From: an uncultured Coriobacteriaceae bacterium
Lineage (GTDB): Bacteria > Actinomycetota > Coriobacteriia > Coriobacteriales > Eggerthellaceae
DNA: 32,614 nucleotides
NCBI GenBank assembly: GCA_902779135.1
Contig: CACZAR010000010.1
Location: forward strand, 1 to 32,614
Direction: 5' to 3'
Made by a program: the position numbers and the translations under genes. The notes below the pieces were generated by a model. That model did no database searches. It was not told the origin of the DNA and worked only from the letters and a program-made list of their open reading frames with translations. Shown one piece after another: positions 10,244 through 24,744 of this stretch; the first letter of the stretch is position 1, and each line of letters opens with the position of its first letter.

Positions 10244-10741
10244 TTAGGCGAACGACTTGCTGAAACGACGGAGCCTTACGGCTGTCGCCTCGTTCACATC
10301 CTCGTAGCTTAACGCACCTGTGGGGCAAATCTCAACGCAAGCTGGATCGTAGCCGAAACGCGTGCGAGCATAGCATGCGTCGCATTTCTGCATGGTGCCG
10401 TCGCGACCGAAACGGGGAATGCCGAACGGGCAAGCCATCGCACATGCATGGCAACCGATGCACAGCTCGCGACGAACGAAAACCGCTCCGCTGTCCGCGT
10501 CACGACGGAGCGCCCCTGCAGGACATGCGTCGAGACACTCCGCGTTATCGCAGTGCATGCAAGCCATCGAGATATGGACGATGCGCACTTCGCCGGCTTG
10601 TTTGCTCTCGACATGCGCGATATGGCGGTACATCAAGCCGTCGCCGACGATGTCAATGTCGTTCTGGTCCATGCAAGCAACTGTGCACGCATAGCATCCG
10701 ACACATTTCTTCGAATCGAAGCACAGGGTCTTCCTAGTCAT
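10244..10741 (-). CDS. 4Fe-4S ferredoxin-type electron-transfer subunit (DmsB-like)
   Basis: A 165-aa iron-sulfur protein with four Cys groups in the order found in DmsB/PsrB-type subunits: CVGCYACTVAC near residue 13, CMHCDNAECLDACP near 61, CIGCHACAMACP near 88, and CDACYARTRFGYDPACVEICP near 110. Four [4Fe-4S] clusters are therefore expected, forming a wire to the Mo enzyme encoded just upstream. The start is the ATG at 10741, which overlaps the Mo gene stop by eight bases and has a strong GGGGAAGGGGG site, so expression is coupled. No twin-arginine signal or membrane anchor is present, consistent with a cytoplasmic complex. Confidence 0.88.
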   Translation of the reverse strand: MTRKTLCFDSKKCVGCYACTVACMDQNDIDIVGDGLMYRHIAHVESKQAGEVRIVHISMACMHCDNAECLDACPAGALRRDADSGAVFVRRELCIGCHACAMACPFGIPRFGRDGTMQKCDACYARTRFGYDPACVEICPTGALSYEDVNEATAVRLRRFSKSFA

Positions 10742-12902
10742 CGACAGCCCCCTTCCCCTCTCCATTGGCTGGCGCGATCCTGCATAACGACGAGCGATAA
10801 CCGGGGAATCCAGAAATCGGATCGAGGTAGTCGCCGTCAATCAAGTCGTTTGCATTTGCCTGGGGCCAGTCGTGGTACATGTGAACATCACCCACGCGTA
10901 CGAGGTTGGTCACATGTGCGCGGACGACAACCTTTCCCTTTGGCGTGGCAATCGTCATCCACGCGCCATCTACAATGCCCGCGGCCGCAGCGTCTTCAGG
11001 ATTGATGTCTGCATGCGGATCGGGACTCAACGCTCTCGTCCACGGCAAGCGGAACGTGCGCGTGTGCTGGAACATCGGCAGACGTGCTCCGAGGTTCAAA
11101 ACCAGGGGGTATTCGTCTGCCAAGTCAGGTCTTGAAATCGGGCTCATCGCTGGCTCGCGATACGACGGAAGAGCCTCGAGCCCTTCGCCCTCGAATTCCT
11201 CGAGCACGCTCGACACGAACTCGACCTTGCCTGACGGCGTCCTGAAGCCGTTATTCAGATATTTCCGCTCTGCTGGAGGCTTGGCGCTCGGCACCCACAT
11301 GCCCTCGGGATGCTTGTCGAGCTCCTCGACCGTCAAGCCGCTCGGTTCGACCATCCATTCGACACATGCCTCAATGCCTGCCTCGAGCAATTCGTCGCCG
11401 AGCGCCAAGCGTTTTGACAACTCCGAGAGGATGTCCACGTCGCTCCACGCCTCGCCGATCGGCTCAATCGCTGGCTGGGTGAACTGCACGTAACCCATGG
11501 GCCAACAGCGGATTTCGCGACGCTCGACCGAACTGCATGCAGGCAGGACGATATCGGCGTACTTCGCGCTGTCAGTGAGGAACAAATCGGCATCGACGAT
11601 GAAGTCGAGCTTGCAGAGCTGGTCGATGAATTCCTGCGAACCAGGGAACATGCGGTAGTTCAAGCCGAGGGCGAAAAACGCCTTCAACGGATATGGTTGC
11701 CCCGTTTCGATCTGGCGGGGGATGTCGCACGCCTGCGCTTCGTTGCACAAACGCGTCCATACGGGAAAGCGCCTGGAGCCGATACGCTCTGGCAGCTCGG
11801 ACAGCTTGCTCGCGCACGTGAACTCACGCTCCCTCGTTGGAAATCCGCCAGGTTGGTGGACGAGCGACGGCGGGTTCATGCGATTGCCGCCCGCAATATC
11901 GAGATTGCCGGTCAGCGCTATGAGGCAGAAGACGGCGCGATAGTTCTGCACGCCGTTCGTGTGGTGCACGACGGGCGCAGCACTGAAATGCACGCAAGCA
12001 GGCTTCGCTTCCGCATACATCCTGGCCGCAGCACGGATATCAGCGGCGGAAACGCAGCAGATTTCGGCCGCCTTCTCGGGTGTCATGTCCGCCACGAGCT
12101 GCTTGTACTCGTCGAAACCACGCGTCCAATTCGCCACGAAATCCTTGTCGTACAGCCCCTCTTCGACGATGACGTGTCCAAACGCCAGGGCAAGTGCGCC
12201 ATCGGTGCCGGGACGCAACTGCAGGAAAACGTCGGCACGTTGCGCCAGGTCGGTCACGCGGGGGTCGATGACGATCACCTTCACACCCGATTCGATCTTC
12301 TTGTCGATTCCCTTGAGGTTGAGGCTCTTCGTCGCCGAAGGATTGTGCGACCAGTACACGACACAGTTCGTGTTCTTGAAGTCAGGACCTGCAGGCGCTC
12401 CGTACGTGAGCTGCTGCGCCATGACCATCGCCGTGGCGCACGTGCTCGACTCGGTCAGGTAGTTCGGGGAGCCAAACTGCATGGCGAACCGCATCAGATA
12501 CGCGCGCGCCCACTTGGCGTAGCCCGAAAAGAACATGACCGACTCGGACCCGAACTTCTTTTTAATCGCATTGAGCTTCGAAGCTATTTCATCGAGCGCT
12601 TCATCCCAGCTGATTTGTTCGAACTCACCTGACCCACGCTCGCCCGTGCGACGGAGCGGCGTTTTGATGCGCTCGGGGCTGTAGACGTACTGGCGCGTGG
12701 CAGCACCCTTGCTGCACAGTGTGCCATGGGAATGCGGTGCCTCTTTCGTGCCAGCAACCTTGATGATCTTTCCGTCTTTCACATACAGGTCGAGACCGCA
12801 CTGCGTTCCGGGATCGCATATTGCGCAAACCGATTTGCGCACTTCGATGCCAGTGTCCGGGCCTGGTATCTTTCCTTTGATCTTGAGCTCCAGATCGTTC
12901 AT
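10734..12902 (-). CDS. Mo-bisMGD oxidoreductase, catalytic subunit (unknown substrate)
   Basis: A 722-aa member of the DMSO-reductase family, which carries a bis-molybdopterin-guanine-dinucleotide Mo (or W) site. The N-terminal cluster motif is C26-x2-C29-x5-C35-x27-C63; the middle spacing is longer than the usual three. The residue in the Mo-ligand position is most likely C155 in ESSTCATAM. The cofactor-binding stretch DPRVTDLAQRADVFLQLRPGTDGALALA is typical, and the C-terminal dinucleotide-binding domain ends with DPISGFPGYRSSLC. There is no twin-arginine signal, so it works in the cytoplasm. It sits between a FAD/NAD(P) oxidoreductase (18-base gap) and a four-cluster ferredoxin subunit (overlap), so electrons should pass NAD(P)H-FAD-FeS-Mo. 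The substrate cannot be read from sequence. Confidence 0.87.
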   Translation of the reverse strand: MNDLELKIKGKIPGPDTGIEVRKSVCAICDPGTQCGLDLYVKDGKIIKVAGTKEAPHSHGTLCSKGAATRQYVYSPERIKTPLRRTGERGSGEFEQISWDEALDEIASKLNAIKKKFGSESVMFFSGYAKWARAYLMRFAMQFGSPNYLTESSTCATAMVMAQQLTYGAPAGPDFKNTNCVVYWSHNPSATKSLNLKGIDKKIESGVKVIVIDPRVTDLAQRADVFLQLRPGTDGALALAFGHVIVEEGLYDKDFVANWTRGFDEYKQLVADMTPEKAAEICCVSAADIRAAARMYAEAKPACVHFSAAPVVHHTNGVQNYRAVFCLIALTGNLDIAGGNRMNPPSLVHQPGGFPTREREFTCASKLSELPERIGSRRFPVWTRLCNEAQACDIPRQIETGQPYPLKAFFALGLNYRMFPGSQEFIDQLCKLDFIVDADLFLTDSAKYADIVLPACSSVERREIRCWPMGYVQFTQPAIEPIGEAWSDVDILSELSKRLALGDELLEAGIEACVEWMVEPSGLTVEELDKHPEGMWVPSAKPPAERKYLNNGFRTPSGKVEFVSSVLEEFEGEGLEALPSYREPAMSPISRPDLADEYPLVLNLGARLPMFQHTRTFRLPWTRALSPDPHADINPEDAAAAGIVDGAWMTIATPKGKVVVRAHVTNLVRVGDVHMYHDWPQANANDLIDGDYLDPISGFPGYRSSLCRIAPANGEGKGAVDD

Positions 12903-12920
12903 GATGCTCCCCTTTCAGCC

Positions 12921-14171
12921 TTACAGATAAGAATTGAGTATCGCTCGACGGTATGTTCCTATATCGTCGACCAACGATTCGTTTTTGAAATCTGGCGAAA
13001 CGACCGCCAAGACGTTGAATCCGACCAATTGGTCTTTGCTTCCTTTTCGCTCGTATGCGAATACGCTCGTCGATTGCGGCGAGGTGATCGTCTCGATTAT
13101 TCGCCCCTCGCTTTCGGCAACGGAACCCGCAGATGCGAACAGAACATCCTGCACATAGATGGTGTTCGACGGAATCGAGCCAGGATACCGACGCATCGGC
13201 ACACGCCCCGCGAGCTCGGCTGCAATAGCCGCCCCGGCACACCGCCCTTGCTGCACGGCGTTTTGCCACAAACCGATCACGCGTTTCTTGCCGCTGGAAA
13301 GATCGAGCGCTTGCGCTACATCGCCGGCAGCAAACACATCGGGAACGCTCGTCCGCATGAAGCTGTCTACGACGAGACCGTCCCCCATCTCAACTGAACC
13401 AGAATCCATGAACTCGAGATTAGGCTTGACGCCTTGGGCAAGAACGACCTCGTCGAACTCTTCTTCGTCACCGTTGCTGAAACGAACGACATAGCTGCTC
13501 GCATCAGATTCGTCTTCCACCCGTTCGACTGCTTGCGACAAACGAAACGTCACGCCTCGTTCTTCCAGCAGCTGTTCGAATCGTTCGGCAACGACGGGAT
13601 GGGCAGATACGCGCAAGATATGCGGGCTTCGACCGAGCATCGTAACGTCGGCCTTCCTGTCGAGGCATGCTTCCACCACCTTGAGGCCCACCATGGATGT
13701 TCCTGATACGAGAACGCGTGCATGCGGCTTGCGGACAAGAGCCTCATACAGCCGATCGGCATCTTCCATGGTTCGCAGCGCATGCGGGCGATAGGCTCCA
13801 AGCTCAGGAAAGCCGGGGGCAACTGGATGCGCGCCCGTCGCGACGAGCAGTTTTGAGTAGCCGACGCGCCGTCCGTCAACAAGCTCGACTTCGTGCGCCG
13901 CAAAGTCAACGGAAACCGGTGTCTGCTGAAAGAGCAGGTCATCAATCAAGTCGGAGAAATCGACGTCCTTCCAAGGAAAGCATTGCTCCTTACCGATTCG
14001 ACCACCCGCGTAATACGAGGTGAGAACGGGGCTGTAGGGTTCAGGACCCGCATTGGTCACCACTGTGAGCGGCCCATCGTACCCGCATTCTCGCAATGAG
14101 CAAATGGCGCTGACCGCAGCAGCGCCGAAACCCAGCACGACAACCGGTCGATCTGCAAAACCATTTTCCAA
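12921..14171 (-). CDS. FAD/NAD(P)-dependent oxidoreductase (nitrite/rubredoxin reductase-like)
   Basis: A 416-aa flavoprotein of the pyridine-nucleotide-disulphide oxidoreductase fold. Residues ~9-21 (VVVLGFGAAAVSA) bind FAD with a GxGxxA variant; a second nucleotide site VLVSGTSMVGLKVVEA (~155-170) binds NAD(P)H; and DVFAAGDVAQ near 287 is the FAD-contacting GD motif. A CxxC redox pair is not seen, so it resembles NirB-type N-terminal domains and ferredoxin/rubredoxin reductases rather than thioredoxin reductase. The start is a TTG at 14171 with GAAGGGG five bases upstream; an ATG at 14164 is out of frame. It heads the operon and has a TATAAT promoter 27 bases ahead. It probably feeds NAD(P)H electrons to the Mo enzyme. 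Confidence 0.82.
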   Translation of the reverse strand: MENGFADRPVVVLGFGAAAVSAICSLRECGYDGPLTVVTNAGPEPYSPVLTSYYAGGRIGKEQCFPWKDVDFSDLIDDLLFQQTPVSVDFAAHEVELVDGRRVGYSKLLVATGAHPVAPGFPELGAYRPHALRTMEDADRLYEALVRKPHARVLVSGTSMVGLKVVEACLDRKADVTMLGRSPHILRVSAHPVVAERFEQLLEERGVTFRLSQAVERVEDESDASSYVVRFSNGDEEEFDEVVLAQGVKPNLEFMDSGSVEMGDGLVVDSFMRTSVPDVFAAGDVAQALDLSSGKKRVIGLWQNAVQQGRCAGAAIAAELAGRVPMRRYPGSIPSNTIYVQDVLFASAGSVAESEGRIIETITSPQSTSVFAYERKGSKDQLVGFNVLAVVSPDFKNESLVDDIGTYRRAILNSYL

Positions 14172-14224: not shown

Positions 14225-14515
14225 TCGGCCATCTCACCTTCCTTTTGTGCAATCCAAGCTATTTGTCCTTCAGCATGGATAAATTGCTGCACCTAACTGG
14301 CTGACGACATCAAACCTGCTCAACGCCTCATCCTTTCAGTATGAAGCCTGCCTTCTGTTCAAAATAGCCATCTACTGCTTAGGAGCACCTACCAACAGCG
14401 CCCCATAATCCAATCTACGCAATCGTGCACTCATGTCCGATGGGGTCGGATGTGACGTGATGACGAAGTCAGTCCTCTCGTGAAAGTGCACGCATCCAGA
14501 TTCAAGGAGGAGATC

Positions 14516-15826
14516 ATGGATGAAACCAAAGACGCAATGAGCGTCGACGAGAAGCGCATGGGCGAGAAGGCGCCCGCGTTGTCCTGGGTAATGCTGCTCG
14601 TCACCTACCTCGCGAGCATCTGCGCACCCCTCACCCAGTTCAAGATTCCACCCCTGTCCAACTGGCTGTTCGCCAACTTCGCACCCGTCGGACTCGACGG
14701 TGCGACATTCGGCTTGCTCATGAGCGCCATGGCCATTATCGGCGTCATCCTGGCGTTCCCCGCGGCCTTCATCGCCCGCCGCATAGGCCTGAAGAACACG
14801 GTGCTCGTGTCGCTCGCTTGCCTGGCTATCGGGTCCGCCATCGGCGCAATCGCCGGCAGCATCCCGATGCTCATGGTCAGCCGTCTCATCGAGGGCATCG
14901 GCATTGGCCTGATCGGCGTTGCGGCCCCGACCTGTGTGTCGGTCTGGTTCCCTCCGCGTCAGCGCGGTCTGGCGCTGGGCCTTTGGGCCACGTGGGTTCC
15001 GCTCGGTTGCGTGCTCATGTTCAACATCGCCGCCCCCATGGCCGGCGGTAACCCCGGCGTCAACCCGCAGGGTTACCTGACCGTCTTCTGGTTCTGCGCC
15101 ATCTTCAGCGCCATCATGTTCGTCGTGTTCGCGCTCGTGTTCCGCATGCCCCGCGGCGAACGTGGCGATATGGGCGTCGAAGGCACATTCAAGGACAGCC
15201 TGCCCTATCTCAAGAACAAGTACATCTGGTACCTCGGCATCGTTTTCTTCGCACTGTGCCTCTCGACCCTCGCAGTCGTTAACACGTTCTACCAGAACTG
15301 GTTGACCGTGCCCGTCGAGGGCGGCGGTATGGGCTTTGACGACCATCTGGCTGGCATGATCACGTCGCTCATGATGGGTTCTTCGCTCATCTTCGCCCCG
15401 CTGTCGGGTGCCCTGTCCGATAAGCTCAAGCCCAACTCCAAGCGCTGGATTGCCGTAGGCGCAGGCATCGCGCTACTTATCGCTGTTGCCTTCGGCTTCG
15501 TTGGCGGCGACATTGCATTCCCGTGCATGGTCGTCTTCATCATCCTGCAAGGAATCGCAGGCGCTGCCGTCGCTGGTGGCTGCCGCCCAATGGCCCCAAT
15601 GATCATGGGCGGCTCTGCCATGGGTGCCACCATGGGCATGGCAGTGCTGCAATTCTGCCAGAATCTTGGCCAAGCCGTCGGCTCACCGTTGTTCGGCGCT
15701 GTGCTCGACTCGATGCATGGTAACTGGTTCATGGCCTCCTGCGCCGTGCAAATCCCGGTTCTGATCATCGGTATCGTCTTCGCGTTCCTGGTAAAGCCCT
15801 TCCCAGCCGACAAGGCCGAGAAGTAG
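14516..15826 (+). CDS. MFS transporter (single copy, + strand)
   Basis: A 436-aa, 12-helix major facilitator related to the two minus-strand carriers at 16407 and 18052. Shared segments include VILAFPAAFI-RRIGLK in the first half and GG-RP-AP-IM ... MA-TM-MAVLQF-Q in the second. The start is the ATG at 14516 with AAGGAGGAG just upstream. It is divergent from the FAD-Mo-FeS operon and followed by a strong terminator, so it is a single-gene transcript. Because the relatives sit in a Mo-enzyme locus, I infer that this carrier imports or exports an aromatic or organic acid for the neighbouring Mo module. No specific substrate motif was recognised. Confidence 0.85.
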   Translation: MDETKDAMSVDEKRMGEKAPALSWVMLLVTYLASICAPLTQFKIPPLSNWLFANFAPVGLDGATFGLLMSAMAIIGVILAFPAAFIARRIGLKNTVLVSLACLAIGSAIGAIAGSIPMLMVSRLIEGIGIGLIGVAAPTCVSVWFPPRQRGLALGLWATWVPLGCVLMFNIAAPMAGGNPGVNPQGYLTVFWFCAIFSAIMFVVFALVFRMPRGERGDMGVEGTFKDSLPYLKNKYIWYLGIVFFALCLSTLAVVNTFYQNWLTVPVEGGGMGFDDHLAGMITSLMMGSSLIFAPLSGALSDKLKPNSKRWIAVGAGIALLIAVAFGFVGGDIAFPCMVVFIILQGIAGAAVAGGCRPMAPMIMGGSAMGATMGMAVLQFCQNLGQAVGSPLFGAVLDSMHGNWFMASCAVQIPVLIIGIVFAFLVKPFPADKAEK

Positions 15827-16406: not shown

Positions 16407-17759
16407 CTACTTGTTTTGCGCGCGAACCTTCTGGTACTCGGAATCCTTGCCCGGGCGAATCAGGAAGCCGCAGATCAGCATGACAACCGACAGCGGGATG
16501 ATCGTGACGAGGCATGCATTCCAGTACGTCATGCCGGAGTCGATCAGACCACCATAGATGGGGCTGAAGCAGTTGCCCACGCACTGGGCGAACTGCAATA
16601 CGGCCATCGACATGGTGGCTGCCATGGCCGACTGGTGCATGATGGACGGAGCCAACGGGCGCAGACCACCGCCACCGATGCCACCGCAAATGCCCATGAG
16701 CACGATGCCGACCCAGCACAGGGGTACAGATTCGGTCTGGAACATGCAATAGAAGCAAATCAGGAACAGCACGGCTGCCGTCATGGGCACGATGCGCTTG
16801 AGATGATGCGGAAGAACAGCGCACAGGTGGCCGCCGAGCGGGTTGAACACGAGGCCGAGCGACGTGACCAACGCGAGGCCGAGGCCCGCGGACTGCTCGT
16901 CCCAGCCAAATCCCGGAGGCGTCGCATCGGGCGAAGTCTGCAGGAAGTTCGGCAGATAGGTGTTGACGATGCCAGTCTGACCGATGATGAAGATGAAGAA
17001 TACGACGGCGAGCAGCCAGATGTTCTTGTTCTTCAGCAGCTTGAAGCAATCGACGAACGATCCCTCGACGCCATAGTCGGCCTCCCTGGTGTCGGGCATC
17101 TTGCACAGCAACATGAACAGCACGAGAGCAACAGCCGCAAAGATGACGACGAACGTGAAGACGCCGCGCCAACCTGCAGCAGCCGCGATGCCGGGGCAGA
17201 CGATCGAGTCGAGCGTAATCGACAGCGGCACCCAGGTTGCCCACAGGCCGAGCATGACGCCGCGGGTCTTTTCAGGGAACCACAGCGTGATGATGGTGGG
17301 TGCAGCAACGCCGGTCAAACCGATGCCGAGACCTTCGATGAAACGACCGATGTAAAGTGCCGTCACGTTCTCGCCAGCCAGCAGCGGAATGATGCCGCCG
17401 ATGATGACGCCAAGCGTTGCGATGAACACCGTCCACTTCAGACCGATGCGACGGCAGATGAACGCTGCAGGAAACGCGAGCACGATGCCGATAAGTGAAA
17501 CGCACGTCATGAGCATGCCGAATCCTGCGCCGGTCATCATGAAGCTTTCAGCAGGGCTTACCGGCGTAGCGATGAAGTATGTCGGGATGGACACGAGCTT
17601 GAACTGCCCGAGCGGGGCGGCGAAGCTCACGAGATAAGTCACAATCCAGATGACCCATGCATAGCGCGGAGTCTTCTGATCGGACTTGGTGATGTACGAC
17701 GAGGCTGTCGGGGTCTGCGGACCCGACACTGTCATAGGTTCTTGGGTTTTCCCCTCCAT
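16407..17759 (-). CDS. MFS transporter, tandem copy B
   Basis: A 450-aa, 12-helix major facilitator, closely similar to the next gene upstream (18052-19410) over its whole length, starting from the shared N-terminus MEGKTQEPMTV. Signature loops are FPAAFICRRIGLKWTV after helix 2 and GLRPLAPSIMHQSAMAATM in the second half. The ATG at 17759 has an AGAGGT site, and ~30 bases of leader match that of copy A. A strong terminator at 17990-18028 lies between the copies, so this gene either depends on read-through or uses its own promoter in 17800-17990, which I could not identify. Its likely role is transport of the substrate or product of the 803-aa Mo enzyme. Confidence 0.88.
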   Translation of the reverse strand: MEGKTQEPMTVSGPQTPTASSYITKSDQKTPRYAWVIWIVTYLVSFAAPLGQFKLVSIPTYFIATPVSPAESFMMTGAGFGMLMTCVSLIGIVLAFPAAFICRRIGLKWTVFIATLGVIIGGIIPLLAGENVTALYIGRFIEGLGIGLTGVAAPTIITLWFPEKTRGVMLGLWATWVPLSITLDSIVCPGIAAAAGWRGVFTFVVIFAAVALVLFMLLCKMPDTREADYGVEGSFVDCFKLLKNKNIWLLAVVFFIFIIGQTGIVNTYLPNFLQTSPDATPPGFGWDEQSAGLGLALVTSLGLVFNPLGGHLCAVLPHHLKRIVPMTAAVLFLICFYCMFQTESVPLCWVGIVLMGICGGIGGGGLRPLAPSIMHQSAMAATMSMAVLQFAQCVGNCFSPIYGGLIDSGMTYWNACLVTIIPLSVVMLICGFLIRPGKDSEYQKVRAQNK

Positions 17760-18051: not shown

Positions 18052-19410
18052 TTACTTGTGCTGCTCCTCGCGGACCTTCTGATACTCGGAGTTCTTGCCC
18101 GGGCGAATGAAGAGTGCGCAAATCAGCATGACGACAGACATCGGAACGATGGTCATCAAGCATGCATCCCAGTACGGGGTGCCAGCGTCGATGAGGCTGC
18201 CGTAAATGGGGCTGAAGCAGTTGCCGACGCACTGTGCGAACTGCAGCACGGCCATACCCATAGTTGCAGCCATGGCGCTCTGGTGCATGATGGCAGGCGC
18301 CAGCGGACGCAGGCCGCCTCCGCCGAGGCCGGCGCAGATGCCCATGAGGACGATGCCGACCCAGCACAGGGGCACAGACTCGGTCTGGAACATCAGGTAG
18401 AAGCAGAACAGGTAGATGACCGCAACCGAGACGGGCACGATGCGCTTCAGGTGGTGCGGCAGTGCAGCGCAGATGGCGCCACCTGCAGGGTTGGATACAA
18501 TGCCAATGGTGGTGACGACGGCCAGGCCGATACCTGCGGTTGCTGCATCCCAGCCGAATCCCGGAGGTGTAGCGGTCGGAGCAGTCTGCAGGAAGTTCGG
18601 CAGATAGGTGTTCACGATGCCCGTCTGGCCAGCAATGAACACGAAGAACACGATGCCGAGCAGCCAGATGTTCTTGTTCTTGAGCAACGCGATGCACTCA
18701 GACACGCCACCCTCGACGCCGTAGTCAGCCTCACGCGTGTCAGGCATCTTGCAGAAGGCCATGAACAGCACAAGCGCGACAACTGCGAAGATGACCACGA
18801 ACGTGAAGACGCCCTGCCAGCCGTAAATCGGCGCAATCGCCGGACATACCAGCGAGTCGAGCGTGATCGAAAGCGGCACCCAGCAGCACCACAGACCGAG
18901 CATGACGCCGCGGGTCTTCTCGGGGAACCACAGCGTGATGATGGTGGGCGCAGCAACGCCGGTCAGAGCGATGCCGAGACCCTCGATGAATCGGCCTACA
19001 TAGAGTGCCGGAATGTTTGTGCCGGCGACGAGCGGAATGATGCCGCCGATAATGACGCCGAGCGTCGCAACGAGAATCGTGTTCTTCAAGCCGAGCTTGC
19101 GGCAGATGAACGCCGCCGGGAAGGCTAACACGATGCCGATGAGCGACACGACCGTCATGAGCATGCCGAAGCCTGCAGCGTCCATCATGAAGCCGCCTTC
19201 GGGGCTCACGCCAGGAACGTAGATGAACCACAGCGGAATGGACACGAGTTTGAACTGGCCAAGCGGTGCGGCGAAGCTCACGAGGAACGTGACGATCCAG
19301 ACAATCCACGCATAACGCGGCGTCTTGCCGTCAGACTTGGTGATATACGACGATGCGGTCGGCGTAAGCGGACCATTCACCGTCATGGGTTCTTGGGTTT
19401 TCCCCTCCAT
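18052..19410 (-). CDS. MFS transporter, tandem copy A
   Basis: A 452-aa, 12-helix major facilitator and near-twin of copy B, with the same N-terminal MEGKTQEPMTV, the loop FPAAFICRKLGLKNTI and the second-half GLRPLAPAIMHQSAMAATM. The start is the ATG at 19410 with an AGAGGT site. It is the last gene of the Mo-enzyme operon, 62 bases after a small Cys-rich gene, and ends at an intrinsic terminator. MFS carriers accompany catechol dehydroxylase and related aromatic-reduction enzymes in Eggerthellaceae (established knowledge). Here the carrier is expected to bring in the substrate or exchange it with the reduced product; this is inferred from position only. Confidence 0.88.
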   Translation of the reverse strand: MEGKTQEPMTVNGPLTPTASSYITKSDGKTPRYAWIVWIVTFLVSFAAPLGQFKLVSIPLWFIYVPGVSPEGGFMMDAAGFGMLMTVVSLIGIVLAFPAAFICRKLGLKNTILVATLGVIIGGIIPLVAGTNIPALYVGRFIEGLGIALTGVAAPTIITLWFPEKTRGVMLGLWCCWVPLSITLDSLVCPAIAPIYGWQGVFTFVVIFAVVALVLFMAFCKMPDTREADYGVEGGVSECIALLKNKNIWLLGIVFFVFIAGQTGIVNTYLPNFLQTAPTATPPGFGWDAATAGIGLAVVTTIGIVSNPAGGAICAALPHHLKRIVPVSVAVIYLFCFYLMFQTESVPLCWVGIVLMGICAGLGGGGLRPLAPAIMHQSAMAATMGMAVLQFAQCVGNCFSPIYGSLIDAGTPYWDACLMTIVPMSVVMLICALFIRPGKNSEYQKVREEQHK

Positions 19411-19472
19411 AGTAAGTACCTCTATCCTTTACACGGAGTTACAGATATTGGTTGCAGCGCTGATGAGCAGCG

Positions 19473-19829
19473 TTATTTCGAAGCCGGAATCTGGCGGATG
19501 CTCCACTTCATGGGATCGCACGGAGGCGTGCCCTGGCCGCAACCGCAACGCGCACGAGGACCGACGACCTTGTCCCAGTAGTTCTTGTCGGTTTGATAGA
19601 CCCATTGGATCTCGTCGAGCGTGCCGGCAATCGTATGCCACCACTCCATACTGGGGCCATACCCCGAGAAGCGGCCATCAGTAGCAGACTGCCCACAAAC
19701 CGTGCAGTAGATCTCGACGGCGCCTTCGCCTTCGGGCTTGGGGCCAATCGAGTTGCGAGGCGCAACTGCCTCGTCAACGGGAATGGATTCCCCGACTTCG
19801 ATGGGCTTGAAATCGTCTTTGTTAATCAT
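19473..19829 (-). CDS. Small Cys-rich protein of unknown function
   Basis: I do not recognise this 118-aa protein. It starts acidic (MINKDDFKPIEVGE), then has a CTVCGQ pair near residue 42 and a second group CGCGQGTPPC near 95, separated by a Trp/Tyr-rich stretch including MEWWHTIAG and WVYQTDKNYW. Four or five cysteines in two groups could hold one zinc or one iron-sulfur site. There are no signal or membrane segments. The ATG at 19829 has GAGGAA five bases upstream and overlaps the stop of the preceding zinc-ribbon gene by eight bases, so the two are made together. The location inside a Mo-enzyme operon suggests an accessory, maturation or electron-transfer role. Confidence 0.7.
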   Translation of the reverse strand: MINKDDFKPIEVGESIPVDEAVAPRNSIGPKPEGEGAVEIYCTVCGQSATDGRFSGYGPSMEWWHTIAGTLDEIQWVYQTDKNYWDKVVGPRARCGCGQGTPPCDPMKWSIRQIPASK

Positions 19830-20055
19830 TTCTTTTCCTCAAATCACGCATTTCGGTTGCGGAAAACGCACTTTGGTTATCAGCCGGACTTCCGGGCGGT
19901 TTGGGTAATGGCGCTCCGCATTCGGAACACCGCGGAACAGCAGGATCGTTTACGTGACCGCAAATCGCGCACACACCGCTCTCGATAAGCGGCCGCTGCT
20001 CGACCTTGCCGCACATACCGCACTGCACGCAAACTCGCGTATACCCTCCGCACAT
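19822..20055 (-). CDS. Small double zinc-ribbon protein
   Basis: A 77-aa protein with three Cys groups in its first ~47 residues: CVQCGMCG, CAICGH and CSECGAPLP. The CxxCG...CxxCG pair is the classic zinc-ribbon knuckle pair, and a rubredoxin-like iron site is an alternative. The C-terminal 30 residues are Pro-rich and then charged, probably disordered. The ATG at 20055 has a GGAG site six bases upstream. It sits 75 bases after the 4Fe-4S gene and overlaps the next small gene. No function can be assigned; metal binding is the only supported statement. Confidence 0.65.
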   Translation of the reverse strand: MCGGYTRVCVQCGMCGKVEQRPLIESGVCAICGHVNDPAVPRCSECGAPLPKPPGSPADNQSAFSATEMRDLRKRND

Positions 20056-20081
20056 CAGCAGCTCCCAAGTACTTCAACGAA

Positions 20082-20112
20082 AGTGGGTGGGCCGAGCCTT
20101 GCCCAGCCCACT
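20082..20112 (-). promoter_or_regulatory. Intergenic hairpin inside the Mo operon
   Basis: AGTGGGTGGGC (20082-20092) pairs with GCCCA-g-CCCACT (20101-20112), giving 11 bp with one bulged G and an 8-base loop. Only a weak T-rich tail follows on the minus strand, so it is more likely an RNA-stability or partial-termination element, lowering expression of the genes beyond the Mo-FeS pair. Confidence 0.5.
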
Positions 20113-20130
20113 CGCATTCAGGTTTCGGCG

Positions 20131-20490
20131 CTAAGCCACCGTGCCAGCCTTCGGAACGTAGAGCACGTTCTTGGTCGTGGCGGTCGCCATCTTGGCGGCG
20201 AGCTCATCGACGGGGCCGTACTCCATGCACAGCGACTGGCAATGCTTCACGCACGTAGGCTTCTTGCCCTTGGCAACGCGCCCAGCGCACAGGTCGCACA
20301 TGTCGGTCGGAATCGGCACGTAGTCAAGCTGCCAATTCTTCTTGTCGATCTGCCACGGACCGACTTCGACCATCTTGATGCCATACTGGCCCACCGGAAT
20401 GTCATGCTCGACGGAGCAAGCCATCTCGCAGGACATGCAACCGGTGCAGTATTCGTAGTTGATCAGAAGACCATATGCTTTCTCAGCCAT
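20131..20490 (-). CDS. 4Fe-4S electron shuttle partner of the Mo enzyme
   Basis: A 119-aa ferredoxin-like protein. The first cluster motif is complete: C15-x2-C18-x2-C21-x3-C25. The second is C65-x2-C68 followed by C80-x3-C84, so two [4Fe-4S] clusters are likely, with C88 spare. There is no signal peptide or anchor. It begins three bases after the stop of the 803-aa Mo gene, with its GGAG site inside that gene's end, so the pair is translationally coupled. In signal-less Mo reductases of Eggerthellaceae such a small ferredoxin is the expected electron donor (family knowledge). It is shorter and has fewer clusters than the protein at 10244, indicating a different redox chain. Confidence 0.87.
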   Translation of the reverse strand: MAEKAYGLLINYEYCTGCMSCEMACSVEHDIPVGQYGIKMVEVGPWQIDKKNWQLDYVPIPTDMCDLCAGRVAKGKKPTCVKHCQSLCMEYGPVDELAAKMATATTKNVLYVPKAGTVA

Positions 20491-20493
20491 GTC

Positions 20494-22905
20494 TTACGCC
20501 TCCATCTCTGCTTCGAGGGTGAAGTTGCGGAACGAGCCCTCGGCGAAGCGATCCTTCGGGTTCGCCGGCTCAGGCAGCGCAATCTCTTCCAGTTCGCACT
20601 TGTACACCTTGCACAGGTAGCACTTGGACTGGTTGCCGAAGCCCGTGTCGCCGCACTCGGAAGGCAGGACGACGTTGATGTTGCGGGCATAGGTTGCGAA
20701 GCAGCCTTCGCCTTGATCCTCGGGGTCTGCCTCGGGGAACCACCAACCGTGGTCTGCCTGGACGACGCGCGGGTCGACGATCGGGGTGATGTGAGCACGC
20801 TCGCGGCAACGGCCGATCGGGCTCTCGATCCAGCACCAGTCGCCTTCCTCGATGCCGCGCTCAGCAGCTGCGTCGGGATGGATCTCGAAACGCGGGTCGG
20901 GATAGTTCGAGCGCAAGCGCTTCATCTGGCGATGCTCGGAGTGGAACGACTCGTAGTGACGGGCGCCCGTGGTCAGGACCAGGTTGTATTCCTTGTACAG
21001 CTCAGGCTGGCTGTAGGGGCTCATCGGCGGCTCAGCGTAGTACGGCAGCGGCTTCTGGCCCCAGCGCTGGAGCAGCAGCGAGTACAGCTCGATGCGGCCG
21101 GTGATGGTGTTGAAGCCCAGGCCACCATCGGGACGCTGCTCGCCGTTGGCATACTTGAAGTAATGGAACTCGGGGTAAATCCAGTTGAGCTTACGGCTGT
21201 CGTCGTAGGTGATGCCGGCTTCCTGGATGAGGTAGCTGAAGTACTCTTCGAGCGTCTCGCCCGGCCAGAGGTCCTTGTTCCAGCGACGACCAAGCTCCCA
21301 GTTGATCTGGAAGTCGTCCTTGGACTCGCCCATCGGCTCGCAAGCCTTGTTGGTGTTCTGGATGTAGTACCAGACCGAACGCAGACCCTCGCGCTCCGGA
21401 TAGAAGCACAGCGGCAGAACGACGTCACAGTTGGCCATCAGGGTCGGGGTCATGAAGCAATCGACGCCGACGACGAAGTCGCAGTTCTTGAGGCCCTTCT
21501 CAACGCGCGGCTCAGGGTCCTGAGCGCAGCACGCCAGCGGGTTGGTCGACTGGATCCAAGCGGCATGGATCTTGAACGGACGGCCGGTGACCAGCTGGTC
21601 GATCATCGAGTCAGCCTGGCACTGAACCATACCGGAGTTCGTGATCATCTCGTAGGTCGAACCGATGCGCTCCTTCTCCTGCTGCGGGGTGAAGACCTCG
21701 CGAGGATCTGGCGGCAGCCAAACTTCGGTGTTGTACGGGTCGTGAACCGTGATCATGCCGCCCGGTCGGTCAACCTGACTGGTGATGCACCACAGGTTGT
21801 GAACAGCCTGGGAGGCGGTGATGCACTGGAGGTTCATGTCGAGCGCGAGGCCCCACTGGACTGCGGTGGGCTGCTCGGCCATCTTCTTGGCAGCCTCGAT
21901 GATGTCTTCCTTGTCGAGCCAGGTCACTTCAGCGGCCCAGTCGAGATCGTAGGGCTTGACGGCCTCATAGTACTCGTCAAAGCCATAGCACCACAGTTCG
22001 ACGAATTCCTTGTCGTAGAGCTCTTCCTCGATGATGTACTTGCTCATGGCGAGAGCGAGCATCGAGTCGGTGCCGGGGCGCAGCTGCAGCCACAGGTCGG
22101 CGCGAGCGGCCAGCCAGGTCAGGCGCGGGTCAACGACGACGAGCTTCGAGCCACGCTTCATGCAGTCGACGACCCAGTGGCCCAGATTGCCGTCAGCGTT
22201 CGCGATCAGCGGGTTGTTGCCCCAGATGAAGATGTTCTTCGGGGCGACCCACTCGGGGTTGTCGTAACGATCGGGGAACTGCATCGAGAAGTCGGGGCAG
22301 GTGTAGCAGCCCATGATGGTGTTGGCAGCAGCGACGCGCGGAACGTAGCAAGCATTGCCGGAATGGAAATACGAATACTGAATGGAGCCGAGAGCATAGC
22401 CCAAGCGTGCGTTGATCGGAGGGGTCACGCGGCCGGTGCCGGACGCGAAGATGATCGACTTGCCGCCGAACTCGTCACGGATCTTCGTGAACTTCTCATC
22501 GATGATGTCGTAGGCCTCTTCCCACGTGATGCGGGTCCACTTATCCGATTTGCCGCGATCTTTGGGGTCGCGCTTCATCGGGTAGAGCAGACGATCGGGA
22601 TGGTAGATGGCCTCGGCAACGTCGAGGCAGCGCATGCAGAGACGACCCTGGTAGTACGGGTTCTCCTCGTCGCCTTCGACCTTGATGAACTTGCCGGTCT
22701 CCTTGTCGGTGTAGACGATGACGCCGCAGCCGTCGTGGCAACCAGGCGCCGACCATGCGGCGGAACGGGTGCAGATCATCCCGTCCTCTTCCCACTGCCA
22801 CGGCAAGTCGCCGCCCGTGTACATGACGGGAGGCTCGTTGAAGAACGTGGGACGTACTTCCTTCGATGAGTCGCTGTCGTGAGGAATGTCAATTCTTAGA
22901 GTCAC
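20494..22905 (-). CDS. Mo-bisMGD reductase, catechol-dehydroxylase/acetylene-hydratase-like
   Basis: An 803-aa member of the DMSO-reductase family. The likely Mo ligand is C186 in SGNACYVPR; cofactor-binding segments include DPRLTWLAARADLWLQLRPGTDS and the C-terminal FHSEHRQ and WWFPEADPE. The last two resemble segments I associate with catechol dehydroxylases of gut Eggerthellaceae. The N-terminal cluster residues are C45, C56, C60 and C90, with unusual spacing. No twin-arginine signal is present, so it is cytoplasmic. The start is a GTG at 22905 with only a weak GAGAGAG site; the ATG at residue 28 is an alternative. It heads an operon with a 4Fe-4S shuttle, two small Cys-rich proteins and an MFS carrier, and faces a membrane LuxR regulator. 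Reductive removal of a ring hydroxyl or a related aromatic reduction is inferred; the substrate is unknown. Confidence 0.87.
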   Translation of the reverse strand: MTLRIDIPHDSDSSKEVRPTFFNEPPVMYTGGDLPWQWEEDGMICTRSAAWSAPGCHDGCGVIVYTDKETGKFIKVEGDEENPYYQGRLCMRCLDVAEAIYHPDRLLYPMKRDPKDRGKSDKWTRITWEEAYDIIDEKFTKIRDEFGGKSIIFASGTGRVTPPINARLGYALGSIQYSYFHSGNACYVPRVAAANTIMGCYTCPDFSMQFPDRYDNPEWVAPKNIFIWGNNPLIANADGNLGHWVVDCMKRGSKLVVVDPRLTWLAARADLWLQLRPGTDSMLALAMSKYIIEEELYDKEFVELWCYGFDEYYEAVKPYDLDWAAEVTWLDKEDIIEAAKKMAEQPTAVQWGLALDMNLQCITASQAVHNLWCITSQVDRPGGMITVHDPYNTEVWLPPDPREVFTPQQEKERIGSTYEMITNSGMVQCQADSMIDQLVTGRPFKIHAAWIQSTNPLACCAQDPEPRVEKGLKNCDFVVGVDCFMTPTLMANCDVVLPLCFYPEREGLRSVWYYIQNTNKACEPMGESKDDFQINWELGRRWNKDLWPGETLEEYFSYLIQEAGITYDDSRKLNWIYPEFHYFKYANGEQRPDGGLGFNTITGRIELYSLLLQRWGQKPLPYYAEPPMSPYSQPELYKEYNLVLTTGARHYESFHSEHRQMKRLRSNYPDPRFEIHPDAAAERGIEEGDWCWIESPIGRCRERAHITPIVDPRVVQADHGWWFPEADPEDQGEGCFATYARNINVVLPSECGDTGFGNQSKCYLCKVYKCELEEIALPEPANPKDRFAEGSFRNFTLEAEMEA

Positions 22906-23050
22906 AGCTACATCACTCTCTCTTAACTTGATCGGATAAATGAAAACGAAGCTGCCCGCAATGGCGGACAGACCGAAGCGCCGCAGCCGGCGTGTTGAGC
23001 CACCACCCCTCTCGTGATCCCCCTCGGCTTTTACTCGTCTTGGGGCACCA

Positions 23051-23080
23051 TAAATATTTGCGAGATGCGTGTAATCCCAA
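23051..23080 (-). promoter_or_regulatory. Candidate promoter of the 803-aa Mo-enzyme operon
   Basis: On the minus strand TTGGGA (23075-23080) and TATTTA (23051-23056) are 18 bases apart, giving a ~140-base leader. The element lies in a ~420-base divergent region (22906-23328) with the LuxR gene. GCACCA (23045-23050) and TGGTGC (23084-23089) flank it as inverted arms. No gene is apparent in the region, and the call is tentative. Confidence 0.3.
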
Positions 23081-23328
23081 CTCTGGTGCTATTTGATGGA
23101 TTGGCATGCGCAAGAGGAGCATCGTACGGCGGATACCATGCATTTTCCAGGCGTTATTCCATACCGGTCCACCTGTGTTCGACCCTCAAAGACGCCTCTG
23201 GTCCATATTCAGCCTTCTGGTATTAGGGCGCTCGGATGCTTTCAGGTCACGAGGGCAAAGGCTGGCAATCGACGTCTCCTACAATCTCCTGAAAAAGCGT
23301 GGCGGCACAACGGCCTGAGGGGGGCACG

Positions 23329-24744
23329 ATGCAGCACAAATCACTCGGCTTCATGCAGCTGGCAATCATTTGCGGATTCAGCTTTTACTATGCTTGGTAC
23401 CTTATTTCGTTCTTTGCATTGTTCGTCTCACCACCCGCTATCGCAACCTTCGTGGAGGTTCATGTCGGGCAGGTCGTGTTCTTCGGAGCGAGCGTGCTTG
23501 CCACGTTGGTGACACTCGTATTGTTCCGTCGGTCCAACAGCAGCATCATCGGACATGCAAAGCTTTTGATTTTGGCAACAGCGGTCTTGGGATTGGCCCT
23601 TCCCGCCCTCGTGATTGCGGGAAATCTCGTATCGTTCGCATCGTTGCCGCTGTTCTACGGCGCATGCTTCCTCTCAGGTGCATCAATGGCCATCGGTTTC
23701 ATGTTGTGGGAGAACCTCTCGACCCAGGGCTATCTGAACAAGGGCGTCTTGGCGCATGGCACGATTTTCTGCGCGGGTGGCATCGTCTTCCTCTGCGCTG
23801 CGCTGTTCCTTTCGAACCTCGATATGAGCTTGCTCGCATCACTCTTGCTAATCGCCAGCACAGCACTGCTCGCCTTCATCACACCACGCTGCAACACGAC
23901 CGAAAACAAGCCGATTGAACCGGTCAGGGACTATTTCAGGAAGGTCTGGAACATCGACGTGGTCGTCGTGGTGCTTAACATCTCGTTCGGATACGCCTTC
24001 ATCCTGCTTTTCGGTTACGACAAGACCTTGCTCGTGGCGACTATGGCCGCAGCTGTTGCGGCAGATCTCATCTTCTCGATCATATTTGGACGGGGAAAAT
24101 GGCTATTGTTCGCCGGCTCTGTGCGCGTTTGCGTGGCATTCGCCTCATGCGCCCTCATTCTGCTCGTCTTACCAGGAGAAACAACGAGCCTAGTCGCGCT
24201 TTGCATCCTGGTTGTCTTCTGGTTCATCTTCCGCACCATCAACGGCGGATCGCTTACCGATTTGGCGAACGCGCATAGCTTCCCAGTTCTCTATTCGTCG
24301 ACGCGGGGAAAGCTGTCTGCCAACGCTGGCTTCACCATCGGTCTTGGCCTGGGCGTCGCTGTGGTCGCCGCAGCCCAACCTGGAATCACAACGACCTACA
24401 TTCCACTCGCCCTCGTTGCGGCATTCATTTTCACAGCCCTGTTCCTCCTGCCCTTCGATGGGGAATCTGCCACAGCGGGCTACAAAACACTTGCGCTTGT
24501 CGACATGCACGTGCCGTATGAATCGGGAATCAAGCACATCTGCGAATCGGCAACGGAGCAGTATCGTCTTTCACCGCGTGAGTCCGAAGTGCTTGAATAC
24601 TTGGTCAAAGGCCGCAACGCCAAGCATGCAGCCGAGAAGCTATTCCTGAGCGAAAGCACTGTGAAGACGCATATATCGAACATCTACCGCAAAACGGGAG
24701 TCCATTCTCAGCAGGAACTTCTCGACAAGCTCGACAAGATATGA
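23329..24744 (+). CDS. Membrane-embedded LuxR-family regulator
   Basis: A 471-aa protein in which residues ~10-390 form many hydrophobic helices (about 12), and residues 412-471 form a LuxR helix-turn-helix: LSPRESEVLEYLVKGRNAKHAA, then SESTVKTHISNIYRKTGVHS. The ATG at 23329 follows GAGGGGG at a short spacing. This architecture, an MFS-like membrane part fused to a LuxR DNA-binding domain, is an expanded family in Eggerthellaceae and is known to control catechol dehydroxylase genes in response to their substrates. It is divergent from the 803-aa Mo operon, so that operon is its probable target. The membrane part presumably senses the ligand directly. Confidence 0.88.
   Translation: MQHKSLGFMQLAIICGFSFYYAWYLISFFALFVSPPAIATFVEVHVGQVVFFGASVLATLVTLVLFRRSNSSIIGHAKLLILATAVLGLALPALVIAGNLVSFASLPLFYGACFLSGASMAIGFMLWENLSTQGYLNKGVLAHGTIFCAGGIVFLCAALFLSNLDMSLLASLLLIASTALLAFITPRCNTTENKPIEPVRDYFRKVWNIDVVVVVLNISFGYAFILLFGYDKTLLVATMAAAVAADLIFSIIFGRGKWLLFAGSVRVCVAFASCALILLVLPGETTSLVALCILVVFWFIFRTINGGSLTDLANAHSFPVLYSSTRGKLSANAGFTIGLGLGVAVVAAAQPGITTTYIPLALVAAFIFTALFLLPFDGESATAGYKTLALVDMHVPYESGIKHICESATEQYRLSPRESEVLEYLVKGRNAKHAAEKLFLSESTVKTHISNIYRKTGVHSQQELLDKLDKI

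Follow-up and report, generated by a model that had tools for sequence, protein, structure and literature searches.

The ellagic-acid pathway of Gordonibacter and Ellagibacter offers the closest described relatives of the locus presented here. According to Bae et al. (PNAS 2025, PMC12771579), the eam cluster of Gordonibacter comprises Eah, Eadh1, and Eadh2, and Gordonibacter stops at urolithin C, while the eam cluster of Ellagibacter isourolithinifaciens contains one additional molybdenum (Mo) dehydroxylase, Eadh3. As reported there, Eadh3 has been assayed and removes the C8 hydroxyl of urolithin C, which yields isourolithin A, and it is active once expressed in Gordonibacter urolithinfaciens. 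The stretch of DNA analyzed here (the window: 32,614 nucleotides, contig CACZAR010000010.1) comes from an uncultured animal-gut member of the Eggerthellaceae and carries an operon whose 803-residue Mo enzyme, Mo803, is very probably an orthologue of Eadh3. The same operon encodes a ferredoxin (Fd119), two small cysteine-rich proteins (Zr77 and CG118), and a carrier of the major facilitator superfamily (MFS452), and lies next to a gene for a membrane LuxR-type regulator (LuxR481).

Over 802 residues, Mo803 shares 89.9% identity with a protein of Ellagibacter DSM 104140 (genome G215, C1:56855-59260). The gene for this protein stands, between 44 and 72 kb of contig C1, among those for two other Mo enzymes (MoX and MoY, which correspond to Eadh1 and Eadh2 in either order), Eah (PF04909), and MFS and LuxR proteins. 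The same cluster is found, without an Eadh3-type gene, on the complete chromosome of a Gordonibacter (G090, placed in that genus since its genus group g11 also holds the record of Gordonibacter massiliensis), with MoX 89%, MoY 88%, and Eah 79% identical. Compared with this chromosome, the Eadh3-type gene is the sole extra Mo gene of the Ellagibacter cluster and, because the paper names one extra enzyme, the Ellagibacter gene is taken to be Eadh3. On these grounds, Mo803 is, with high probability, the Eadh3 orthologue, and the locus the Eadh3 unit of the ellagic-acid pathway, acting on urolithin C to give isourolithin A. The sequence-only reading had put the locus forward as the best candidate for an undescribed system; for the enzyme, which would have a published reaction, that proposal is not supported.

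The remaining pathway is established, at the level of sequence, in the same genome, as are the identity of the enzyme and the linkage of its genes. Other contigs of this genome encode MoY (89.5%), MoX (86%, on a partial contig), and Eah (76%), so that, together with Mo803 for the last step, the genome appears to encode every step that leads from ellagic acid, a plant compound, to isourolithin A. G325, a second genome of this genus, has the Eadh3-type gene directly adjoining MoX, and four genomes, the genus of the window being represented among them, link the Eadh3-type unit to MoX or MoY. Across 398 genomes of the class Coriobacteriia, Eah is present at an identity of at least 70% in 14, the Eadh3-type clade in 9, and both in 6 (Fisher p of about 5e-8, or 9e-6 within the family, neither value being corrected for phylogeny).

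Several points weigh against this assignment. The identity of the Ellagibacter enzyme as Eadh3 is a tight inference by elimination, not an accession match, and Eah is not found in three of the nine genomes with the clade (two drafts about 94% complete and one 82% complete). Regioselectivity can differ between enzymes that share 74% identity (PMC11887054); transfer of the reaction from the Ellagibacter enzyme is thus strong at 90% identity and weaker for G. massiliensis, at 80%, where regulation and transport may also differ, since the MFS and LuxR genes flanking the unit there are non-orthologous. The natural substrate of Mo803 could conceivably be another catechol (a lignan, a flavan, or another polyphenol intermediate), with the Eadh3 activity a side reaction or restricted to the Ellagibacter branch, given that paralogous dehydroxylases with different substrates abound (18 to 117 matches to Mo803 per genome, not all of them full genes), that close relatives can differ in regioselectivity, as just noted, and that the unit lies physically outside the eam cluster in the window, in G. 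massiliensis, and in some other genomes, but this is very unlikely in view of the 90% identity to the Ellagibacter enzyme, a co-occurrence with Eah that exceeds chance, and the four genomes in which the unit is linked to MoX or MoY.

Mo803 matches the Pfam families PF00384, PF01568, and PF04879. Its N terminus has no hydrophobic segment, and its length fits the range of about 750-830 residues typical of the Gordonibacter-type enzymes, which lack a twin-arginine translocation signal. The cluster cysteines follow the pattern C56-x3-C60 ... C90-x2-C93; all compared Gordonibacter-type dehydroxylases show this C-x3-C ... C-x2-C arrangement instead of the usual first cysteine, with the first spacing one residue longer in two of them. 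Cys186, in an ACYVPR motif, aligns with the metal-ligand cysteine of polysulfide/thiosulfate reductase, and a Cys-x-x-PR motif with its cysteine so aligned is common to all the compared enzymes. The sequence-only reading had recognized here a signal-less dehydroxylase with a molybdenum bis-molybdopterin guanine dinucleotide (Mo-bisMGD) cofactor, accompanied by a ferredoxin, an MFS carrier, and a membrane LuxR protein. This class assignment is right, judging from the protein sequences, Mo803 belonging to the cytoplasmic Gordonibacter-type catechol dehydroxylases, and the arrangement is a published one (PMC7028382, PMC9734109, PMC12771579).

In the tree, Mo803 belongs to a monophyletic Eadh3-type clade (support 100/100) apart from MoX, MoY, and a further group, clade B, which is its sister (98/98). 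In the class-wide search, matches to Mo803 fall at 76-95% identity for the Eadh3-type clade, 59-62% for clade B, and at most 54% for the general family; the single gene at 76% (G353) is truncated by a contig end, and its neighbors fall outside the sequence. A C-terminal tail of about 28 residues (approximately 776-803 in Mo803) is conserved throughout the Eadh3-type clade; it takes this form in that clade only and differs from the tail of clade B. Clade B, which occurs in several genomes of the Gordonibacter genus and in other genera, shares with Mo803 the extended N terminus and the ferredoxin, but has neither Zr77 nor CG118, which a profile search did not find in nine fetched clade B regions, some of them ending at contig ends. 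The proposal that clade B represents Eadh1 or Eadh2 was ruled out, as Ellagibacter has no clade B copy and MoX and MoY form separate clades. Genes of this group are found in L040 (8170-10929), L041 (7909-10671), and L042 (8619-11384), and also in L047 and L048; the clade B gene is flanked by two more dehydroxylases in an order conserved in genera g11 and g17.

Among characterized enzymes, the Ellagibacter Eadh3 has the same neighbors as Mo803 (ferredoxin, Zr77, CG118, MFS, and LuxR). The unit of the window differs in not standing next to other eam genes on its 32.6-kb contig, and in its divergent LuxR gene, which in Ellagibacter is co-directional and upstream. MoX and MoY belong to the same enzyme class and each comes with a small ferredoxin, but they are only about 43-46% identical to Mo803 and their units have no Zr77 or CG118. 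The Gordonibacter-type enzymes Dodh, Cldh, and Gp Hcdh (PMC7028382, PMC11585353) resemble the locus by description, rather than by direct sequence comparison, in being signal-less and in having a small 4Fe-4S partner and MFS neighbors, while their substrates differ from that of Eadh3. The closest solved structure is acetylene hydratase (PDB 2e7z, E 4e-80), a remote relative aligned in two pieces. Acetylene hydratase, a tungsten-dependent non-redox enzyme without such an operon, was ruled out as the function of Mo803, the closest relatives of which are dehydroxylases at 60-95% identity. Pyrogallol transhydroxylase (AthL), which is missing from the 44 matches found in the PDB at E values up to 1e-10, was likewise ruled out.

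The two small proteins are conserved, dedicated partners of the Eadh3 unit. CG118 is present in 9 of the 398 Coriobacteriia genomes. Scanning named genome contigs gave 11 loci; they include those of E. isourolithinifaciens DSM 104140 and of the strain described as G. massiliensis, Gordonibacter sp. Marseille-P2775, and the remaining ones come from metagenome-assembled genomes (MAGs), among them one obtained from roe deer jejunum and others with record names that point to the rumen. The gene order Mo803-Fd119-Zr77-CG118-MFS is kept in all 11 of these independent loci, from several genera, which exceeds chance, and the linkage of the small genes on which the sequence-only reading had staked its case is therefore complete. 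The Mo803 orthologues at these loci are 81-95% identical where the gene is complete, a contig end cutting it in two of them. In G. massiliensis the MFS and LuxR genes are non-orthologous, yet the four-gene core of Mo803, Fd119, Zr77, and CG118 is intact. The divergence of Mo803 correlates with that of CG118 (Spearman 0.83 over 45 non-independent pairs). On the chromosome of the cultured human isolate of G. massiliensis (G074, LT827128.1) the complete unit spans 1168418-1173421, and this genome also carries Eah, MoX, and MoY.

Zr77 has eight invariant cysteines, arranged as an N-terminal C-x6-C-x2-C-x2-C (MCGGYTRVCVQCGMC; MCGGYTRVCVxCGxC) followed by a CxxC...CxxC zinc ribbon, and a variable C-terminal third. 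It gives sub-threshold zinc-ribbon matches only in Pfam and generic zinc ribbons in the PDB profile search, and its predicted structure, with a mean predicted local distance difference test score (pLDDT) of 63, is too low in confidence to interpret. The idea that Zr77 is unique to the Eadh3 unit was ruled out, since relatives are found at other dehydroxylase loci. Zr-type matches occur in 80 of 138 genomes of the family, with up to 13 per genome, although the weakest may be generic zinc ribbons. Among 48 inspected relatives outside the Eadh3 unit, 47 fit a permissive eight-cysteine pattern and 40 the exact C-x(2-3)-C-x2-C-x2-C. In five genomes, a Mo803-type and/or Fd119-type gene lies within 2 kb of 20 of the 29 Zr-type loci, whereas none of the 31 control windows, placed at even intervals, contains one (p 2e-9, a value somewhat inflated by the clustering of dehydroxylase genes in islands). 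Nineteen of these 20 are on the same strand as the nearest such gene, and 16 lie downstream of it. No paper joining a zinc ribbon with Gordonibacter-type dehydroxylases surfaced in the literature search, and a word search of the main text of the eam paper (PMC12771579) found no mention of hypothetical genes; the family of eight-cysteine zinc-ribbon miniproteins is thus apparently undescribed.

Small zinc-ribbon proteins of another kind, which start with MCFRP and have long APGAPG-type repeats, occur in L040 (minus strand), L041 (plus strand), L048 (minus strand), L109, and L119, near clade B and other dehydroxylase loci. Genus g8 (G054, G070, and G138), possibly Eggerthella, in which the dehydroxylases rely on different accessory genes, has 53-96 Mo-enzyme candidates and no Zr-type match listed.

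CG118 has five invariant cysteines (C42, C45, C95, C97, and C104) and equally invariant WW and CGCG-type motifs. It matches no Pfam or NCBIfam family, and its PDB profile search returned only a weak LysM-domain match (E 0.02) and antibody light chains, the latter by chance; its predicted structure (mean pLDDT 48) is too low in confidence to interpret. A profile search of 346 genomes of the phylum recovered its own genome and two insignificant matches, and CG118 was not found on the plasmids searched. It thus appears to occur only in Eadh3-type units. The sequence-only reading had placed both small proteins outside the known dehydroxylase theme, which holds for CG118, specific to this clade, and fails for the 77-residue type, common at other dehydroxylase loci.

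The best guess for the two proteins is a dedicated role in maturation or electron transfer. It is about an even call that Zr77 stands for a multi-copy family, not described so far, of eight-cysteine miniproteins dedicated to the Gordonibacter-type dehydroxylases, that CG118 is a second partner, specific to Eadh3, and that the two together form an accessory layer in gut polyphenol metabolism, overlooked on account of its tiny, unnamed genes. A tentative reading, somewhat short of even, takes both for maturation factors that load the Fe-S cluster or the Mo cofactor into Mo803, as counterparts of the Eggerthella-type DadhD-H. In its favor are the invariant cysteine sets of both proteins and the identical operon and gene order at all loci. 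Many Mo-ferredoxin units, moreover, have a related miniprotein next to them, mostly on the downstream side and usually encoded on the same strand, and accessory genes are indispensable for Dadh (PMC11887054). The structure predictions, not being confident, lend it no help, and Eadh3 is active in G. urolithinfaciens, although in the scan G. massiliensis is the only Gordonibacter species with CG118. For this reason CG118 is probably dispensable for the catalysis of Eadh3 itself, unless it was co-cloned with the enzyme; Zr-type paralogues, which are present in Gordonibacter genomes, could stand in for Zr77.

It is less likely that the two proteins carry electrons from Fd119, or from a different donor, to the enzyme, or serve as adaptors that dock the two together. 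The N-terminal cysteine motif seen in 40 of the 48 Zr-type relatives is compatible with an Fe-S cluster, and enzymes of the Gordonibacter type are soluble proteins that lack a membrane anchor (PMC7028382). However, the second half of Zr77 resembles a zinc ribbon and not a rubredoxin, the PDB profile searches gave no convincing match to a known redox protein, and the methyl viologen assays described in the eam paper work without the small proteins (PMC12771579). A role unrelated to catalysis, as RNA- or DNA-binding zinc-ribbon regulators or as products of a response protecting against catechols, is slightly more doubtful still: 9 of the 29 Zr-type windows have no recognizable Mo-ferredoxin genes nearby, but the linkage to Mo803 persists where the MFS and LuxR genes have been replaced, as in L035.

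By analogy with characterized relatives, sensing, transport, and electron delivery at the locus can be proposed as follows. DadR, CadR, and HcdR are membrane LuxR activators that respond to substrate (PMC9734109), with 10-12 N-terminal transmembrane helices and a C-terminal LuxR helix-turn-helix. LuxR481 shows this pattern, with a GerE domain at residues 424-476 preceded by about a dozen hydrophobic segments in a crude hydropathy count, and would sense a catechol, such as urolithin C or a precursor, and switch on the operon. A block upstream of Mo803, running from 23155 downward, is conserved in nine loci from different genera (about 72% majority identity over the best 30 columns) and is a candidate site for the regulator. 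MFS452, a member of MFS_1, may import or export urolithins. Fd119, which matches PF13247 just above the cut-off, holds nine cysteines (C15/18/21/25 and C65/68/80/84/88) and, once reduced, would pass electrons to Mo803, as in its relatives (PMC7028382, PMC12771579). Mo803 would then remove the C8 hydroxyl of urolithin C to yield isourolithin A, as transferred from the assayed Ellagibacter enzyme. Zr77 may be a metal-binding adaptor for assembly or electron relay, of a type on which many Gordonibacter-type dehydroxylases draw, and CG118 may serve Eadh3 alone, perhaps by acting on the clade's own C-terminal tail.

The new elements are the linked families of Zr77 and CG118 and the spread of the Eadh3-type unit, which appears unreported because the published MAG search queried Eah, Eadh1, Eadh2, and Ucdh, with Eadh3 not among them (PMC12771579). 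By orthology, uncultured Eggerthellaceae, several of them with ruminant-type record names, and G. massiliensis are probable producers of isourolithin A, as predicted for G. massiliensis in contrast to G. urolithinfaciens and Gordonibacter pamelaeae. In the cattle rumen, the principal urolithins on record are isourolithin A and urolithin B (PMC3679724), and the carriers of the unit offer a source for the former. Accessory genes decide the heterologous production of Eggerthella-type dehydroxylases (PMC11887054); should such a dependence hold here too, the small proteins would matter for deorphanizing the tens of dehydroxylase genes found per genome.

Features of the Eadh3-type locus and its surroundings (positions in the window)
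Feature	Position	Strand	Basis
Mo803, Mo-bisMGD dehydroxylase	20494..22905	-	GTG start; Pfam, homology, tree
Fd119, small ferredoxin with two 4Fe-4S motifs	20131..20490	-	Pfam, Cys motifs, locus comparison
Zr77, eight-cysteine miniprotein	19822..20055	-	alignment, family profile searches
CG118, no known family	19473..19829	-	Pfam/NCBIfam, genome scans
MFS452, MFS carrier	18052..19410	-	Pfam MFS_1, locus comparison
MFS450, tandem paralogue of MFS452	16407..17759	-	Pfam, locus comparison
LuxR481, multi-transmembrane LuxR-type regulator, divergent	23299..24744	+	Pfam GerE, hydropathy
Divergent promoter region, LuxR481/Mo803	22906..23298	.	intergenic
Candidate regulator site, around GCCTGGAAAATGCATGGTATCCGCCGTAC	23090..23155	-	upstream-region alignment

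The six open reading frames between 18052 and 24744, the operon-like spacing, and the divergent LuxR gene described in the sequence-only reading are all confirmed. Pfam and NCBIfam searches also bear out the protein classes given there. Mo803 and Fd119 are separated by 3 nt, Fd119 and Zr77 by 75 nt, and CG118 and MFS452 by 62 nt, while the reading frames of Zr77 and CG118 share 8 nt; LuxR481 diverges from Mo803 across 393 nt. MFS450, about 80% identical to MFS452, begins 292 nt downstream of it, outside that interval, and is probably in the same transcription unit. A tandem second MFS copy is also present in L028 and L030, and in L031 only a decayed remnant is left (11990-12178), which points to an ongoing loss of the duplicated gene at that locus.

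Beyond these genes, the window contains, at 10734-14171, a second signal-less Mo enzyme of 722 residues, similar to formate dehydrogenase/thiosulfate reductase and 34% identical to Mo803, followed within the same interval by a gene for an NAD(P)H-type FAD oxidoreductase. Another MFS carrier, MFS448 (14480-15826), is 49% identical to the MFS protein adjoining MoY in the Ellagibacter eam cluster, and a 94% identical relative of it adjoins the Eadh3-type unit in L029 (3580-4920).

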